Assembly (NCBI GenBank): GCA_024281825.1
Contig: JAMWZY010000007.1
Location: 62,001 to 126,000, forward strand
Reading direction: 5' to 3'
DNA: 64,000 bases
DNA from: Nitrosomonas sp.
Lineage (GTDB): Bacteria; Pseudomonadota; Gammaproteobacteria; Burkholderiales; Nitrosomonadaceae
Positions 30,862 to 39,429 of this stretch are shown here, in pieces. A model generated the notes under the pieces. It was not told where the DNA came from. It saw nothing but the letters and a program-made list of their open reading frames with translations, and searched no databases. Position 1 is the first letter of the stretch; each line of letters begins with the position of its first letter. A program made the translations under genes and the position numbers.

Positions 30862-31266
30862 ATGAAAACCGATAAAGAGTTAAAAGAAAACAATCCAGAA
30901 TTATATAAAGTAGCGCGCCAAGGCGAAACTGAAAGACCTCATTCGAGTGATTTATTACATATCGACAAAAAGGGCATATTTCATTGTGCAGTATGCAATG
31001 CAAGTTTATTTAGTTCAGACACTCAGTTTGACTCAGGATCAGGCTGGCCTTCATTCACAGACCCAATCAACCAAGAATCCGTAAAACTTATTGCAGACCA
31101 CAGTCATGGCATGCATCGCACAGAAGTGCGATGTACAAATTGTGATGCGCATTTAGGTCATGTTTTTCCAGATGGCCCTAAAAGAAAAGGGGGAAATTTA
31201 GAAACTCTGGGACGACACGATCGATATTGCATCAATGGCATTTGCCTCGATTTGCAAAATAACTAA
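30862..31266 (+). CDS. msrB: peptide methionine (R)-S-oxide reductase MsrB
   Basis: A 134-residue MsrB. It has the four zinc-binding Cys (CAVC near the start, CTNC later), the substrate motif FDSGSGWPSF, HLGHVFPDGP, and the catalytic Cys in RYCING. MsrB reduces the R form of methionine sulfoxide in proteins, using thioredoxin. It ends ten bases before msrA, so both stereoisomers are handled by one operon. There is no signal peptide, so it is cytoplasmic. Confidence 0.95.
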   Translation: MKTDKELKENNPELYKVARQGETERPHSSDLLHIDKKGIFHCAVCNASLFSSDTQFDSGSGWPSFTDPINQESVKLIADHSHGMHRTEVRCTNCDAHLGHVFPDGPKRKGGNLETLGRHDRYCINGICLDLQNN

Positions 31267-31275
31267 GCTACATAA

Positions 31276-31776
31276 ATGTCAATTTATAAAAAAGCAGTTT
31301 TAGCGGGTGGGTGTTTCTGGGGCCTAGAAGATTTGCTTCGTAGGCAACCAGGGATAATGAATACGGAAGTTGGATATATCGGTGGACAAAACGATAATCC
31401 TACTTACCATAATCACCCTGGGCATGCAGAGGCTGTTGAAATTACATACAATCCAGAAGAAACCAGCTATAGAAATATTTTAGATTTTTTCTTTCAAATC
31501 CATAACCCAACGACACTTAACCGCCAAGGCAATGACCGAGGAACTTCCTACCGTTCGGCAATATTCTACGCAAACGATGAAGAAAAAGCTGTTGCCGAAG
31601 AAATAATTAATATTGTAAACAAATCGGCACGATGGCCGAATCCTGTTGTTACGACACTTGAACCGTATACACATTTCTGGTCTGCAGAAGACTATCACCA
31701 AGATTACCTAAGGCGAAATCCAGGCGGATACACATGCCACTCTATTTATTTTGACAGTTATCTTAAAAAGAATTAA
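31276..31776 (+). CDS. msrA: peptide methionine (S)-S-oxide reductase MsrA
   Basis: A 166-residue MsrA with the catalytic GGCFWGLE motif near the N-terminus, [33 protein letters not shown] and AEDYHQDYL. It reduces the S form of methionine sulfoxide in the cytoplasm. It is the second gene of msrB-msrA. A gap of 150 bases with an 11-bp inverted repeat separates it from the convergent di-haem cytochrome gene. Confidence 0.95.
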
Positions 31777-31926: not shown

Positions 31927-33345
31927 CTACAAAGTAGCTAAAAAAGCTACTAGATCTGCTTTTTCTTTTTCGGTCAACCGTATTTTGAAACGTTGATCAT
32001 AGAAATTAATAACTGCTTTCAGATCTTTTGCTGAACCATCATGAAAATACGGTGGACGTGATGCAACAGAACGCAATATTGGCCCTTTGAAACGGCCAAT
32101 ATCCTTCCATTTGCCTGTTAGTAATGCACGACCCGGATCAGTAGTTTGCATAATTTCTCCAGTTGTTTTTTTTCTTAACGTATACAGAGGCATATCAGGC
32201 GTGCGACGCGATGCATCAGCAATACCGATATTCAGCGGCATGGGGGTTGAGTGATTACCTGAGTTCGGTGTGTTATGGCATGAAGTGCAGGTGCCTTTCA
32301 ATACAGCGATATTCAGATCATCATTGATACCGGCAACACCGCTAATTTGAATCGGTTTATTATTAAATAGGGCCTGGCCACGTGCAATTGCACCGCGCGC
32401 TCTTTGTGTTTGATTCGTTGCACGGCTAGAATAACGTTCCCAAGTATTATATAAAGACATAGCGTTAGAATCGAAGGATTCACGAGTCCGGTAATCCCCA
32501 ACCAAAGTATCATTAATACCAAAATAATAATCTTGGGTCATCAAAAAACCAGGCCCGCCATTCACTCCATTTCCCGTCAAATTCCCTGCATTATTATCGA
32601 CTATTTGTGCTGTAAATAACCCCATTTCAAAATTTACGATTTCGGTTCGCTCTGCCTCGGTAAGATCTGCTAAAGCTTCAGCATGGCCTCGTGTTGCATG
32701 ATTAGCTTGCATCGATAAATCAGAAGCCACAGGTGAAAAGCATGTCGTTGTACCAAAAATACAATCCGTAGAAATATCGCTCCGAGTTGTTTCGCGTCCA
32801 TCCCACATCACCGCGCTAAGGAACTTTAGATTCGTAGTCGGCATGGGTCTTCGAAACAACGATAATTCATTTGCATTAGCAAAACCATACGGATCATCGA
32901 TTCCAATCAATTCAAATTCGGCATCCACCGGTATGCCTATACCAACACGTATATTGCCTTTGTTCAACAACATGCTATAGGCCTGGCGGCGTTTCTCAAT
33001 AGTCGAGACATCGGCATTTGGAGAATTAGCCCCATCTACCAAGCGAAATAACGGATCTAAACCGGCTGTTTGTTCGAAACGTTTTTGGGTTCCTTTCGGT
33101 GTAATTGCCCAGCCTTCCGTAGGAACATGGCAAGTAGCGCATGTTCTGTCGTTAGTCCCCATTTTTTTAAAAAAAGCATTGTTAAAATCAATAAATCCAT
33201 GGGTACTAATAGTTTTATCAATACCATGACGATTGATTGCTGAAACACTAGTTAAGTTTTCAGCAGCAATAGATAGAGTAGGGAATGTAATCAATAATAC
33301 GATTATCACAAGCAATTTACGTAATTTATAAAAACATTGATTCAT
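31927..33345 (-). CDS. di-haem cytochrome c peroxidase / MauG-like protein
   Basis: A 472-residue periplasmic protein with a Sec signal peptide (about residues 1-27). Two c-type haem sites are visible: CATCH (in NDRTCATCHVP) and CTSCH (in GTCTSCHNTPNSG). The C-terminal LRSVASRPPYFHDGSAKDLK is typical of the bacterial cytochrome c peroxidase/MauG superfamily. Members reduce peroxide or carry out long-range oxidations of proteins. It is longer than classical CcpA (about 330 residues), which fits the broader MauG group. It lies downstream of the multicopper oxidase gene on the same strand and may use or supply electrons in the same process; that is inference. Confidence 0.85.
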   Translation of the reverse strand: MNQCFYKLRKLLVIIVLLITFPTLSIAAENLTSVSAINRHGIDKTISTHGFIDFNNAFFKKMGTNDRTCATCHVPTEGWAITPKGTQKRFEQTAGLDPLFRLVDGANSPNADVSTIEKRRQAYSMLLNKGNIRVGIGIPVDAEFELIGIDDPYGFANANELSLFRRPMPTTNLKFLSAVMWDGRETTRSDISTDCIFGTTTCFSPVASDLSMQANHATRGHAEALADLTEAERTEIVNFEMGLFTAQIVDNNAGNLTGNGVNGGPGFLMTQDYYFGINDTLVGDYRTRESFDSNAMSLYNTWERYSSRATNQTQRARGAIARGQALFNNKPIQISGVAGINDDLNIAVLKGTCTSCHNTPNSGNHSTPMPLNIGIADASRRTPDMPLYTLRKKTTGEIMQTTDPGRALLTGKWKDIGRFKGPILRSVASRPPYFHDGSAKDLKAVINFYDQRFKIRLTEKEKADLVAFLATL

Positions 33346-33364
33346 ATTTTATTTCTTATGTAAT

Positions 33365-33472
33365 TAATAAAGCACCTCGCCGCAAGCAGCCAGGTATTAG
33401 GTATGCTCTCCAAGCTCCTGTTTTCAACCAGCTTGCTCCCCCAAGGGGCGAGTAATTTAACCCGAAGAGATT
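33365..33472 (+). repeat. structured dispersed repeat, copy A
   Basis: About 108 bases that resemble 61279-61392 along their length: both begin TAATAAAGCAC, contain TTTTCAAC or GTTTCAAC followed by AGCTT, then CCAAGG, and end AATTxAACC...AGATT. The two ends can pair (CTCGCC with GGCGAG). It lies between the cytochrome and multicopper oxidase genes, opposite to their transcription. It is probably a REP-like palindromic element rather than an RNA gene. Confidence 0.55.
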
Positions 33473-33543
33473 AAAAAATATAGCAACCTTACCACCTCAA
33501 CCAATTACCATAAAAGGATTGGCGTTTCTCAAAAAGAGAAACA

Positions 33544-34599
33544 CTATTCAACTTTAAATGAGGTCATCATACCGGCGGTGATATGATCGTTTACGTGACA
33601 GTGATACATCCAGATCCCGGGTACATCGGGGCGCATATCCAGTGTTTTAGTCGCTGCGGGCAATACTTCGGTAACATCCACCCGATTTCCATTGTGTAAC
33701 AGCGTTGCACCATGCCAATGCGGTGAGTGAAGATCGACCTCTGTTCCTAATCCTAGGATATACCAACGCACACGTTCACCCTTCTTCATGATGTAACCGA
33801 TGTTGTTGTCATAAACGTAACCATTGATACCATGCATAAGATTGCTTTCCTGGAAACCCTCATCCGATGGATCACAGGTACCGCTACAAAAAGGCAAATT
33901 AGTCTCAAAATAGAGACTGGCATTTTCATCAAACACTGAAAATAACGAAAAAAATTCACGATCCACATCATTGGGTTTTCTGGTGGTAGTCTCAAAACCT
34001 TTTTTTGTGATGACGATAGGCCCGATCAATCCGGCATTGGTATCGGCAGGTTCATTATTGTGACTGTGATAAATCCAAACGATGGAAGATGGATCATTAG
34101 GTCCAGGTCCTGCACGTTCTGGAACTTCCCATTGATAAGTATACTGACCACCCGGCGCCACTAACCCTTCGGTATGTGGCACACCTTCATGTGTTTTAGT
34201 ATATAACACCCCATGCGGATGTATGCTAGCCGGAAAACGGGTATTGTTTTTGAAATGTACGGTAATTTTATCACCGACCGCGGCCCGAATGACCGGGCCT
34301 AGAATACCCATATGCGCTTCTTCGGAGACACGTTGTTTAAATCCTGCAAAGCCTTCATTGTATTCACGATAAATTGCTTTTAAATAACGTCTTCCAATTC
34401 CCTGCTCAACAAAAACGCGTTGCTCCGCAGTAAATTCGGTATTAGTCATCGGATTGATCGGGAATGACGGTGCATAATCCCAATGCATTTCATCCGCCGC
34501 GATCCAATAAACTCGATCCGCATTAGCCAATGCAGATGTATGAATCAATCCAACCAACACAGCAATAATGAACAAGCAACCTACTTTCCCGCTAGACAT
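33544..34599 (-). CDS. ceruloplasmin-like two-domain multicopper oxidase
   Basis: A 351-residue secreted multicopper oxidase with a Sec signal peptide (about residues 1-26). All four copper motifs are present: HPHG and HSHN in the N-terminal cupredoxin domain, HSPHWHG and YHCHVNDHITAGMM in the C-terminal one, giving the type 1 Cys/His/Met and the type 2/3 His set. The text between them reads like animal ceruloplasmin and factor VIII A domains (EEAHMGILGPVIRAAVGD, GLIGPIVITKKG, LFSVFDENASLYFETN), more so than typical bacterial laccases. Such enzymes oxidise Fe(II), Mn(II) or phenols with oxygen; ferroxidase activity is an inference that fits the Fur box upstream of this gene set. Confidence 0.88.
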   Translation of the reverse strand: MSSGKVGCLFIIAVLVGLIHTSALANADRVYWIAADEMHWDYAPSFPINPMTNTEFTAEQRVFVEQGIGRRYLKAIYREYNEGFAGFKQRVSEEAHMGILGPVIRAAVGDKITVHFKNNTRFPASIHPHGVLYTKTHEGVPHTEGLVAPGGQYTYQWEVPERAGPGPNDPSSIVWIYHSHNNEPADTNAGLIGPIVITKKGFETTTRKPNDVDREFFSLFSVFDENASLYFETNLPFCSGTCDPSDEGFQESNLMHGINGYVYDNNIGYIMKKGERVRWYILGLGTEVDLHSPHWHGATLLHNGNRVDVTEVLPAATKTLDMRPDVPGIWMYHCHVNDHITAGMMTSFKVE

Positions 34600-34762
34600 C
34601 TAATGCCCTCCTCATTACTGACAAACAAAATTCAATCGCCATTGAAAATTATTTCAATATTCAGCGAAATTTTTCTATTCGGTGTTAATTGATAGCACAA
34701 AAAATTGTGCTAACTAATGGTGTGATTTAAGCAAGTAAAGCTCGCTTACTGAGTCATTTCAG

Positions 34763-34799
34763 AAGGTAATTTGCTGTAATTTCTCAGGCAAATTACCTT
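34763..34799. terminator. 12-bp-stem hairpin between the 750-residue protein gene and the oxidase gene
   Basis: AAGGTAATTTGC and GCAAATTACCTT flank a 13-base loop, starting just after the stop of the upstream minus-strand gene. The T-run (GTTTTTT) lies on the plus-strand side, so for the minus-strand operon this looks more like a processing or attenuation hairpin than a clean terminator. Confidence 0.45.
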
Positions 34800-34805
34800 A
34801 GTTTT

Positions 34806-37058
34806 TTAGATCAATTGCCCTTGGTACTGGGAAAGAACATCATCAATCACTGCTTTAGCAGCAATTGCTCGCTCCGAATCCGTTGTTTGAATGGCATGCT
34901 TCAAATTACGAATGGCATTTTCTATTTTTACCCGGCGCAATGTATCTAAGCGCAATTCCAAATCAGGCAGAAAGCTACTTACATACAGGTCAATAGCCTC
35001 CACTGCTACCAGCGCTTGACTCCTATCCGTTGAAAACGTTGCTGCAATCTGATGAATACTGCGGTTTATTTGCCCAATCATGCCCTTACTGATATCACTG
35101 ACGATTTCATCTGCCGAAACAGTAGCCAGATCGCCAATTAGTTGTGCCTTAATACGATTACTGCCGGATGGATTATCTTGCGCGATAAATCCTTCAATAA
35201 TGCGATAGAAATATTCACCTTCAACTTGAGCTTCTCGTGCATCAGCAACATCAGCATCGCGATTGCCAATGATTCCTTCAACTTCACGTAAAACACCAAT
35301 CAGATAAGTCCTAACTAGTGGCACAACAATGTTTTCGCGTGCGATCGATACATCAAAATGATTCTCTTCATTTGTTTTTGCGAGTGCTTGTCTACCATAT
35401 TCAAAAGCCTGCAGAATTTGGTAATCCAAATCAGGATCCCGACCATCCTGTAATGATTTTTTATCGCTTGTGAGTACTTTGTTTAAACGTGAAGCTGTGC
35501 CGCTAATAGCTTGAAAAGCTGAATAAGCCCTATCCCACTCCAAAATCAATTGATCGGAAGAAAAACTATCAAACTGATGAACCACCAACGTCGTTCTATC
35601 GTATACCGCAATGGCAAAAACACGTTGCAATGACTTGTCGATTACCTGGGCGGCCAATGGTACATCAATCTGGTTTTTAATTGAATTAATGGCGGACATC
35701 ACATCGCTATCGACGGATAAACCATATATTTGGTCGACAATTTTTGTCAATTCTTGCAAATCACCTTGATAAGCGGCCTCAATAGCACTCCCATCAATGG
35801 TCGCTTGTCTGCGTAATTCACCGATCGTTTGAAAGCTTTTAACAGCTTCATCAATGATCACTGTAGTCGTTGAAGTTTCGTATTTTGCAACTTTCAACGC
35901 ACCTTCATAGCTAGTCAAAATGACAGTAATTGCATCACGAGCTTGCACAGATTTCTCGACACTGTTTTCACTACTGGCTACTTGCAAGTTATTAAGTTCT
36001 GTTTCAAGATTCGTTCGTACCGCAGCACCTAAACGCAATTCAATGTCTGGAAACATAATCTTGGCGAAATAAACCGCGCCAGCGGCTTCAGCCATTGCTT
36101 GCGGACGATCACTGCCAACAGCACTCGCTTGCCCTGTCATTTCTGCTTTAACCCGACCGATCAATCCCTTGCTTAATTCACTTACAAAAGTATCTGCATC
36201 AATTTCCGACAATCTACCCGTCAAACGAGATTTCAAAAATGCGCTTCCTGCCGGATTATCACGTGCAATCAGCGATTCGATGATGCGATAAAAAACTTCC
36301 CCCTCTTTTAACGCTTCGCGCGCTTCATCGGTATCAGCATCGCGATTACTTATAACCCCGGATATCTCACGCAATACACCAATATAATATGCGCGTGCTA
36401 ATGACATACGAATGCCGTACCGTTCCACTTGCAGCGTGGCAAAATCTTCATTTGGATTACTTTTATTCAAGGCTGTTTTGACTCTGGCAAATGAATTTTT
36501 AATCGCTACATCCAAGCCTGGATTGGTGCCCGCTTCAAGTGCTTTCTTATCAGCAGTGAGCACTTGATTCTCTCTTGCAACAGTTTTTTCGATTGCTACA
36601 AAAGCTGCTTCCGCTTGTAAAAGTAACTGTATCAACGTATCCGAACCGCTCGTATTGAATTCATCACGGATAGCCGTAATGCGATTCCATATCGATTGAT
36701 AAAAAACACGCTGCAGAGTTTTATCGACAACTTGGGCTGCCAATGCTGGATCTTTGCTATTTTTAATATCTTCAATTGCCGCTTGAATGTCTTTGTCTAA
36801 TTCAAGGTTATTCACTTCGTCAATTTCCATTGCCAAGTTTTGTAATGCGCCTGTATACGCATTTGCAATCGCATCACCATTGATCGGAGATTCTTGACGT
36901 AAATTCCCTATGGTTTGGAAAGCAACAACAGCTGCCTGAATATCCGTGACACTTGCGGTTGCTGCGAAAACACCACTACTACTGCAAGTAAAAAATATCA
37001 TAAAACTCATAATCGCTATATTTTTCATCTTGACTACGAGTTGGTTGAATAAATACAT
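34806..37058 (-). CDS. secreted 750-residue protein of two homologous halves, unknown function
   Basis: A predicted all-helical exported protein: signal peptide (about residues 1-33, ending SGVFA-A), then two copies of one ~350-residue domain (about 36-380 and 388-748). Shared blocks include FQTIGNLRQ / FQTIGELRR, LAAQVVDKTLQRVF / LAAQVIDKSLQRVF, and the striking NRDADxxDAREAxxEGExFYRIIE followed by DNPxGS. Acidic clusters with Glu-Gly-Glu are compatible with metal binding. I do not recognise a named family; imelysin/EfeO-like or FTR1 periplasmic domains are distant possibilities. ATG 37058 is preceded by two AAGGAG sites. A near-consensus Fur box lies 35 bases upstream. The oxidase gene follows on the same strand. 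Confidence 0.8.
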   Translation of the reverse strand: MYLFNQLVVKMKNIAIMSFMIFFTCSSSGVFAATASVTDIQAAVVAFQTIGNLRQESPINGDAIANAYTGALQNLAMEIDEVNNLELDKDIQAAIEDIKNSKDPALAAQVVDKTLQRVFYQSIWNRITAIRDEFNTSGSDTLIQLLLQAEAAFVAIEKTVARENQVLTADKKALEAGTNPGLDVAIKNSFARVKTALNKSNPNEDFATLQVERYGIRMSLARAYYIGVLREISGVISNRDADTDEAREALKEGEVFYRIIESLIARDNPAGSAFLKSRLTGRLSEIDADTFVSELSKGLIGRVKAEMTGQASAVGSDRPQAMAEAAGAVYFAKIMFPDIELRLGAAVRTNLETELNNLQVASSENSVEKSVQARDAITVILTSYEGALKVAKYETSTTTVIIDEAVKSFQTIGELRRQATIDGSAIEAAYQGDLQELTKIVDQIYGLSVDSDVMSAINSIKNQIDVPLAAQVIDKSLQRVFAIAVYDRTTLVVHQFDSFSSDQLILEWDRAYSAFQAISGTASRLNKVLTSDKKSLQDGRDPDLDYQILQAFEYGRQALAKTNEENHFDVSIARENIVVPLVRTYLIGVLREVEGIIGNRDADVADAREAQVEGEYFYRIIEGFIAQDNPSGSNRIKAQLIGDLATVSADEIVSDISKGMIGQINRSIHQIAATFSTDRSQALVAVEAIDLYVSSFLPDLELRLDTLRRVKIENAIRNLKHAIQTTDSERAIAAKAVIDDVLSQYQGQLI

Positions 37059-37092
37059 TCTCCTTAATCTCCTTAAAATAATAGATAAGAAA

Positions 37093-37111
37093 GCTAATGA
37101 TAATCATTATT
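37093..37111. promoter_or_regulatory. near-consensus Fur box
   Basis: GCTAATGATAATCATTATT matches 17 of 19 positions of the Fur consensus GATAATGATAATCATTATC. It is centred about 44 bases before the start codon of the 750-residue protein gene and about 175 bases before the divergent plus-strand gene, so Fur could repress either or both. Confidence 0.7.
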
Positions 37112-37278
37112 ATTTAGTTTTTCAAGGATTATACTAAAAGAAAAAATAATCTGGATATGAGAAATGGAAATGGATCAGAGTGTTTTCTCATTGATCCATT
37201 TCAAAACATCGCGGCATTAAACAGCTAGTTATATGATAAATTTTAGCAAATGATCTAATTCACCAAAATCAAAAGCGA

Positions 37279-38025
37279 ATGAGCATTCCCTTAGAATACT
37301 GGCTGCATCACATGTACTTTTATGTGTTGTTATTTATAATCCACTATATCAATGGAATATTAGTCATTGATCTAAATTTCAAGGTCAATTACACAAGAAA
37401 GATCAATCACTTCGCATTTTTCTTTCTTCCAACACTACTATCACTAGTCGTTAAATATCCATACAGCGCAGCCACATTTATTATGGATATGGTATGCGCC
37501 TTTATATTTTTGACATTTTTCATAACACCATTACGAAATAGATTTAGGCTACTTCGGGTGATGTTTTGTTCGTTCGATAGGCCTGAGGATAGGCCGTTTA
37601 CACTGGTATGGCTGTACACACAATTTATTGCCAGCTATTTAGTACTCATTCCATTACTGATCTATTTCGAGAGTCACGGTATGCTACCGCTTCTGATGAT
37701 TATTATCATAGTCAACGGAATAGGTGATGGTCTCGCAGAACCAGTTGGCATAAGATTTGGGAAACGAAAATATGCAACTTATGCACTTTTTACGAAGGAA
37801 AAATATGTTCGCAGCTATGTGGGCAGTGCTTGTGTATTTGTAACAGCTTTCATCACAATCTTAGCATTTCACTCCTATTTCAATGCAATTCAGTTGATAG
37901 TCGCACTACTCACAATACCCATTCTGATGACTTTGGCAGAAGCCTTTTCTCCGCATACCTGGGACAGCCCATTCATATACGCCGTAGGTGGTATTTCATT
38001 AATTGGTATTTTTTTGTTTTTGTAA
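37279..38025 (+). CDS. dolichol-kinase/CTP-transferase-like membrane protein
   Basis: A 248-residue protein with seven or so hydrophobic segments. The motif GIGDGLAEPVGIRFGKRKYA followed by KSY-like RSYVGSACVFV resembles the CTP-binding signature of phosphatidate cytidylyltransferases and dolichol/phytol kinases (GDxxAxxxGxxFGK). It would act in the inner membrane on a lipid alcohol or phosphate; the exact substrate is unknown. It is divergent from the 750-residue protein gene, with the Fur box between them. The ribosome site is weak. Confidence 0.7.
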   Translation: MSIPLEYWLHHMYFYVLLFIIHYINGILVIDLNFKVNYTRKINHFAFFFLPTLLSLVVKYPYSAATFIMDMVCAFIFLTFFITPLRNRFRLLRVMFCSFDRPEDRPFTLVWLYTQFIASYLVLIPLLIYFESHGMLPLLMIIIIVNGIGDGLAEPVGIRFGKRKYATYALFTKEKYVRSYVGSACVFVTAFITILAFHSYFNAIQLIVALLTIPILMTLAEAFSPHTWDSPFIYAVGGISLIGIFLFL

Positions 38026-38535: not shown

Positions 38536-39429
38536 ATGAAAGGCAAAGGAATGACTTTGATGGATTGGCAGAAGCAGTATGGAACAGAAGAAGGCTGTAT
38601 CGAAGCGCTGATAAAGCAACGCTGGCCGGAAGGCTTTCGCTGCCCATGCTGTGGCTACGATAATGGTTATGCTATTAAGACACGTGGTTATTGGGAATGC
38701 AGCCAATGTCATAAACAAACCTCGATAACGGCTGGTACCTTATTTCATTCAACCAATCTGCCATTAACCAAGTGGTTCTGGGCGATTTACTTAGTTGCAT
38801 CTGATAAAGGCGGTGTTTCTGCCTTACGATTATCCAAACAAATTAACGTGTCTTGGATTACTGCCAGCAGAATGCTACGCAAGATTCGTATTGCTATGGG
38901 ACACCGAGATAGCCTATATCGGTTACAAGATTTGATTGAAATAGACGACGCATTGATTGGAGGGCGTCATACTGGGGGAAAGCGCGGTCGGGGCGCTGAA
39001 AGAAAAACATCAGTGCTCGTCGCGATTGAGAGTCGAGAAAAGCGTGCTGGTTTTATTGCCATGCAGCAAGTCTCTAGCGTTAACCGAGAAACGGTGTCAC
39101 AGTTTGTAAAGCGGCATCTGTCACCTGATCAATATGTACGAAGTGATGCACTGCCAGCCTTAGCTGAAATCAGTAAAACACAGAACCATACTCCTCGTGT
39201 GACTCCACCAAACAAAGCTGGCGAATGGCTTCCATGGGTTCATGTCGCAATTGGCAATCTCAAGACATTTTTATTGGGAACATATCATGGTGTGTCATCA
39301 GGTTACTTGCAAGAATACCTCAATGAATTTTGCTATCGCTTTAATCGACGAGTGCGGGAAGCAGAACTGCCTTCTCGACTCCTCAATGCATGTTTGAGTC
39401 ACACCCAGATTAAACTGAGAATAGTTTAG
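38536..39429 (+). CDS. IS1595-family (ISXO2-like) transposase
   Basis: A 297-residue transposase. The N-terminal zinc ribbon is FRCPCCGYDN ... YWECSQCHKQTS (about residues 34-65); the ISXO2-like catalytic domain follows with IEIDDALIGGR (first Asp), YVRSDALPAL (second Asp), and a late Asn/His/Glu region (HVAIGNLKTFLLGTYHG, then YLNEFCYRFNRR). The gene fills the element and its stop lies in the first copy of the duplicated right end. All key motifs look intact, so it may be active. Confidence 0.92.
   Translation: MKGKGMTLMDWQKQYGTEEGCIEALIKQRWPEGFRCPCCGYDNGYAIKTRGYWECSQCHKQTSITAGTLFHSTNLPLTKWFWAIYLVASDKGGVSALRLSKQINVSWITASRMLRKIRIAMGHRDSLYRLQDLIEIDDALIGGRHTGGKRGRGAERKTSVLVAIESREKRAGFIAMQQVSSVNRETVSQFVKRHLSPDQYVRSDALPALAEISKTQNHTPRVTPPNKAGEWLPWVHVAIGNLKTFLLGTYHGVSSGYLQEYLNEFCYRFNRRVREAELPSRLLNACLSHTQIKLRIV

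Follow-up and report, generated by a model that had tools for sequence, protein, structure and literature searches.

A Nitrosomonas locus with a Fur-like site encoding an FEA-like protein and a ceruloplasmin-type multicopper oxidase, a candidate for iron capture

Organization of the locus and its Fur-like site

In a 64,000-nucleotide stretch of the genome of a Nitrosomonas sp. (contig JAMWZY010000007.1, positions 62,001 to 126,000; hereafter the window), we analysed three minus-strand genes that may form part of an iron-capture system. In order of transcription, these open reading frames (ORFs) encode an FEA-like protein of 750 amino acids (aa; 34806-37058), a two-domain ceruloplasmin-type multicopper oxidase of 351 aa (33544-34599) and an exported di-haem c-type protein of 472 aa (31927-33345), with gaps of 206 and 198 bases between them. 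A first-pass annotation of this DNA had described three same-strand genes with exported products, and both points hold: the ORFs lie where it had placed them, and each product starts with a Sec-signal-like stretch, as judged by eye. The range it gave, extending to 38025, includes the three genes and also covers a divergent gene (37279-38025, plus strand).

The near-consensus Fur box that had been reported ahead of the first gene was located at 37093-37111, 34 bases 5' of the ATG of the FEA gene; this site, to which no strand is assigned, agrees with the 19-base consensus at 17 positions, having two mismatches on the plus strand and three on the minus strand. By shuffling, 0.06 such matches are expected per window, and the whole 2.57-Mb genome contains three places within three mismatches of the consensus, with none for a reversed-pattern control. 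The second of these (L158) is flanked by a minus-strand gene and a bacterioferritin-like gene, and the third (L159) is inside an ORF. Among relatives, a Fur-like site scoring at least 14/19 precedes the FEA gene in 40 of 51 Nitrosomonas-type cases and in none of 12 Planctomycete genes, whereas by the same scoring it precedes one receptor gene in 40, one di-haem gene in 8 and none of the 16 oxidase genes, suggesting that, among the genes compared, the FEA gene has the best support as a Fur target. A promoter-like hexamer pair (TTGAAA-17-TATCAT; 37125-37097, minus strand) overlaps the Fur-like site; such pairs are not above chance in the window (12 versus 17 in shuffles). The divergent gene, whose 248-aa product looks by eye like a membrane protein and gave no Pfam or NCBIfam match, shares with the FEA gene the intergenic region containing the site.

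The encoded proteins

In the 750-aa protein, a signal peptide recognized by eye is followed by two FEA-like halves spanning residues about 31-389 and 393-750, the N-terminal half lying at 35883-36962 (residues 33-392) and the C-terminal half at 34809-35882, both on the minus strand. The halves share 43% identity over 349 columns (E 7e-94), confirming that the protein is internally duplicated, as had been noticed before. Nothing in Pfam scored over its cut-off for this protein; the NCBIfam model NF038033, 'FEA1-related lipoprotein', matched residues 520-653 over about 140 positions (3.4e-9), with a value of 6.8e-8 for the C-terminal half. The earlier statement that the first protein belongs to no known family was thus in part wrong, since an FEA1-related model is matched, far below its cut-off. 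The match recurs among relatives, being found for 17 of 24 halves from Nitrosomonas genomes (E 0.01) and for 14 of 20 domains in a set including nine Planctomycete domains (E 0.001; best 6.9e-10), and the window protein and that of Kuenenia (L115) align to the same C-terminal stretch of the model. A search of 398 genomes from the phylum gave matches to the C-terminal segment of NF038033 for two Nitrosomonas FEA genes only, and 14 other matches were to its N-terminal portion. Together, these weak but repeated matches suggest a distant likeness to algal FEA1, short of proof of kinship. The C-terminal half was modelled with high confidence (mean pLDDT 94.5) as an all-helical domain, and a profile search of solved chains brought up no FEA1 entry. 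Over 115 FEA domains, 19 polar positions show conservation of 95% or more, including Tyr, Asp, Glu and Arg. No convincing lipoprotein signal was seen by eye in the window protein, a further difference from the NF038033 family.

The oxidase, described in the first-pass annotation as ceruloplasmin-like, is indeed 40-44% identical to two of the three units of ceruloplasmin, which was also the best fit to its structural model, and thus the closest solved fold, of 984 chains compared. Twelve copper ligands (H127, H129, H178, H180, H291, H294, H296, H333, C334, H335, H339 and M344), which we assign to the type 1 and trinuclear sites by correspondence with ceruloplasmin, are invariant in all 24 aligned relatives, and the type 1 set is found in domain 2 only. 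The counterparts of the Fe(II)-site residues, E251, H256, D338 and E287, are likewise invariant, both in these 24 relatives and in 35/35 of another sequence set. In ceruloplasmin, the passages available from PMC11817551 give the corresponding Fe(II)-site ligands as E935, H940, D1025 and E272. The protein differs from ceruloplasmin and hephaestin in that its 351-aa chain has two domains instead of six; most likely, three copies of about 39 kDa each form a homotrimer rebuilding the six-domain ceruloplasmin ring. By class and ligands, it is a predicted two-domain ferroxidase of the ceruloplasmin type, that is, a short stand-in for ceruloplasmin that would oxidize Fe(II). In the 37 genomes of the genus, close oxidases (67% identity or more) were found only where FEA is also present (10/10, one copy broken). 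The gene appears broken into pieces in an N. ureae genome (L063). In genome G018, a close oxidase apart from FEA (L148:4989-9572) is near two genes, one for a 427-aa product that by eye is a PepSY-like membrane protein and one for a 556-aa product that by eye is an ABC exporter, and this is possibly another iron locus.

The third product, previously called di-haem peroxidase-like, scored above the cut-off for PF03150 (CCP_MauG; 32.5 versus 25.6 bits) and has CxxCH motifs at residues 69 and 353, in support of that description. It shares these features with MbnH, MauG and bacterial di-haem peroxidases, but at 472 aa it remains far below the equivalog cut-offs for MauG (38.5 versus 443.85 bits) and MbnH (50.6 versus 362.85 bits). 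The FEA-linked di-haem genes cluster within a single sub-lineage, and the gene is a probable later addition to the locus. The same genome has a second di-haem gene, 74% identical, with no iron gene obvious by eye beside it (L160:4083-5513; G000:C11:233085-234446).

Neighbourhood and distribution in relatives

We compared the surroundings of 53 Nitrosomonas-type FEA loci, of which 50 could be assessed upstream and 48 downstream. A gene for a TonB-dependent receptor, which scores as a siderophore receptor, is immediately 5' of FEA in 42 of the 50, and is itself preceded by tonB-exbB-exbD in 10 of the 53; a bacterioferritin-like gene is present in 12 of the 53 clusters. In the window's genome, the receptor gene is on another contig and is 64% identical to that of a relative. 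The receptor family occurs in all 28 genomes with FEA and in six of nine without. In N. oligotropha Nm75 (L078), the receptor gene appears broken into pieces, and in G010, which has the receptor but no FEA, a DUF2325 gene stands beside the receptor gene, with flanks that by eye are as in FEA loci (L161:5537-6937). Immediately 3' of FEA, the di-haem gene was found in 5 of 48 loci; at L058 and L079 it follows a 1075-aa ORF, and at L063 and L083 the oxidase gene follows a small, probably spurious ORF. FEA and the oxidase gene are adjacent in, for example, the cultured N. aestuarii Nm36. The co-occurrence expected elsewhere for the three genes was borne out only in part: the whole set was seen only here and in the very close relative Nitrosomonas sp. 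NEU_AOB_4 (L052), while elsewhere FEA occurs with either the oxidase or the di-haem gene, a count in which some relatives' contigs end too early to tell.

The earlier remark that a permease is lacking stands, since neither FTR1 (PF03239), which was positive in 4 of 14 control genomes, nor the FeoB C-terminal domain was found in the window's genome. Across the genus, FTR1 was detected in 0/28 genomes with FEA versus 4/9 without (p 0.0019, uncorrected for descent and with some genomes incomplete). The partner that recurs with FEA is the TonB-dependent receptor, not a permease.

The FEA protein is encoded in 28 of 37 genomes of the window's genus and in none of 24 others of the order (61 genomes in all). 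Its nearest named relative is that of NEU_AOB_4, with 95% identity over the C-terminal half. Two database searches and a pattern scan in which each species was represented by one genome gave named matches in Nitrosomonas and Planctomycetes (Brocadia, Kuenenia, Wunengus and Anammoxibacter), beside other Proteobacteria and Planctomycetes; the protein searches, with FEA and with the oxidase, scored only the roughly 8000 candidates with the most shared words. The pattern scan included 12 Planctomycete FEA loci, six of them from anammox genera by name. Their proteins mostly have one FEA-like domain behind a carboxypeptidase-regulatory-like domain (read for L115), and that of L100 carries two such FEA-like domains. 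A tree of 115 domains showed three groups, consisting of 52 of 53 Nitrosomonas N halves, of 49 C halves plus one N-labelled domain, and of 13 Planctomycete domains including both from L100, suggesting that the duplication in Nitrosomonas was probably a single event.

In the Planctomycetes, a gene for a secreted protein with two CxxCH motifs follows FEA in 10 of the 11 loci with readable downstream sequence; at L105 a small opposite-strand ORF lies between, L100 lacks a two-haem gene, and the L110 locus runs up to the edge of its contig. This two-haem protein did not group with the di-haem family of the window at 1e-15. Downstream of the FEA locus in Brocadia sp. WS118 (L104:14893-18669), we observed a gene for a 394-aa encapsulin-domain protein, followed by one for an 862-aa fusion in which a multicopper oxidase is joined to a hydrazine-dehydrogenase-like multi-haem part.

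A possible iron-capture mechanism and its alternatives

Ammonia oxidisers rely on many haem proteins and require iron. Gene order, the Fur-like site, the class and ligands of the oxidase, the recurring linkage to a TonB receptor and the distant match to the FEA1 model are together consistent with a Fur-controlled system, tied to a TonB receptor, that captures the Fe(III) produced by a ceruloplasmin-type ferroxidase, a reading to which we give a probability of roughly 0.6. When iron is short, Fur would leave 37093-37111, and the FEA gene, probably co-transcribed with the oxidase gene, would be expressed and both products exported. The oxidase would then convert Fe(II) to Fe(III) with O2 at a site to which one subunit contributes E251, H256 and D338 and its neighbour E287, and the Fe(III) may be held by the FEA-like protein, presumably at one site per half, as is thought for FEA1/phytotransferrin in algae. 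A TonB-dependent receptor at the outer membrane would either receive iron from FEA or have brought it in, and the di-haem protein may be an optional redox helper.

Several observations weigh against this reading. Neither the oxidase gene nor the di-haem gene of the window is preceded by a Fur-like site, and therefore their control would hinge on read-through or co-transcription. The NF038033 score is 35.9 bits versus a curated cut-off of 250 bits, and the link to algal FEA1 rests on the name of that model. The FEA model resembled no solved fold (no Foldseek match at E 0.001), none of the 19 conserved polar positions is a His, and the window protein lacks the R/K-E-x-x-E motifs of Ostreococcus tauri Fea1; excerpts of PMC4855317, which reports these motifs, describe them as absent from Chlamydomonas Fea1 too. 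The oxidase gene is immediately 3' of FEA in just 13 of the 48 assessable loci, its link with FEA across the 37 genomes is not significant (10/28 versus 0/9, p 0.079), and in G018 and G019 it is on a contig other than that of FEA. Two-domain oxidases of the ceruloplasmin type are in addition common in bacteria, one 68% identical being named as from a Methylococcales genome. Finally, the neighbourhood of FEA revealed no route by which Fe(III) could cross the inner membrane, and a genome-wide search gave one FecCD permease match.

The disparity between receptor and oxidase adjacency may instead mean that FEA works with the TonB receptor, at the surface or in the periplasm, on ferric siderophores or some other metal complex, and that the oxidase, one of a widespread class, acts independently as a general copper or phenol oxidase and is adjacent by chance in some species. 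The siderophore-receptor score agrees with this, as does the statement in the part of PMC3050691 available to us that N. europaea, for which it records no known siderophore production, can use ferrioxamine-bound iron. However, the four invariant Fe(II)-site ligands, the restriction of close oxidases to FEA genomes and the lack of FTR1 from every FEA genome speak against this explanation, which we consider rather unlikely. It is also unlikely, to a similar degree, that the resemblance to FEA is due to chance or is very remote, the 750-aa protein being its own helical carrier family that is found in Nitrosomonas and in bacteria of the anammox type and has an unrelated ligand; the sub-threshold score, the failure to find a structural match and the limited range of named matches are in its favour, but 17 of 24 halves match NF038033, the anammox protein L115 matches its C-terminal segment, and no gene other than FEA matched that segment in the 398 genomes.

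Protection rather than uptake is quite improbable. In such a role, the oxidase and FEA would clear toxic periplasmic Fe(II) and hold it in the Fe(III) form, and the di-haem protein would assist them by consuming peroxide. This would suit the joint export of an oxidase and a haem protein, the methionine sulphoxide reductase genes msrB and msrA (30862-31776) that adjoin and converge with the di-haem gene, and the bacterioferritin-like genes in relatives' clusters. The Fur-like site at the start, however, suggests expression under iron scarcity, and the neighbour found most regularly is a receptor for uptake.

EfeUOB and Fet3-Ftr1 pair an oxidase with a binder, and the first-pass annotation had taken EfeOB and Fet3-Ftr1 as parallels for an iron system. 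There is good support for its idea of an iron system in which the gene of an exported, ferroxidase-like oxidase stands behind a Fur-like site, but the window's genome lacks FTR1 and its binder and oxidase are from other families, and the closest parallel is algal FEA1 with the ceruloplasmin-like FOX1. According to portions of PMC3759009, PMC8098128 and PMC3600357, Chlamydomonas expresses secreted FEA1 and FEA2 with the six-domain ceruloplasmin-like ferroxidase FOX1 in iron deficiency; PMC8098128 gives Q9LD42 as a UniProt accession for algal FEA1. The two systems are alike in having a secreted FEA-like protein and a ceruloplasmin-like oxidase, and differ in that ours is a bacterial locus with a two-domain oxidase and a weak FEA match, in which a TonB receptor and a Fur-like site replace FTR1. 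Two Fea1 domains are likewise described for O. tauri Fea1 in sections of PMC4855317, and diatom phytotransferrin ISIP2a, distantly related to Fea1, binds Fe(III) with carbonate, as stated in parts of PMC4855317, PMC7676907 and PMC7972479; by description, ISIP2a differs in being membrane-anchored and endocytosed. A claim relayed in an excerpt of PMC7676907 traces ISIP2a and transferrin to periplasmic phosphonate-binding proteins.

The proposed mechanism also parallels ceruloplasmin and transferrin in its logic. Tentatively, and with more doubt than confidence, we suggest that the locus encodes a bacterial counterpart of that pair, in which a trimeric two-domain ferroxidase would load Fe(III), together with carbonate, onto an FEA/phytotransferrin protein of two lobes that works for a TonB receptor. 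FEA would then be bacterial as well, with an O2-using oxidase partner in aerobic ammonia oxidisers and a two-haem partner in anammox bacteria, and algal FEA1-FOX1 may have bacterial roots.

Each component has known relatives, and their combination points to an undescribed form of bacterial iron capture. No paper in the open-licence literature was found to mention Nitrosomonas and FEA1 together, the two algal iron-uptake reviews that a wider search of that literature gave mentioned neither anammox nor Nitrosomonas, and its best matches included no report of this locus or of FEA with a ceruloplasmin-type oxidase and a TonB receptor in bacteria. FEA1 and FEA2 are called algal-specific, with an unsolved mechanism, in the available text of PMC3759009 and PMC8098128. 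If our reading is true, a bacterial FEA with a ferroxidase and a TonB receptor would be a simpler system for studying how FEA acts, and iron capture in nitrification and anammox would be linked to that of algae.

Two further features were noted in the window. A terminator-like hairpin is located at the stop of the oxidase gene (33544-33522), and structures of this kind do not clearly exceed chance expectation (7 versus 4.5). An IS1595-type transposase gene (38536-39429) is close to the locus, and this, plus the position of the TonB receptor gene on the other contig, hints at rearrangement in this lineage.

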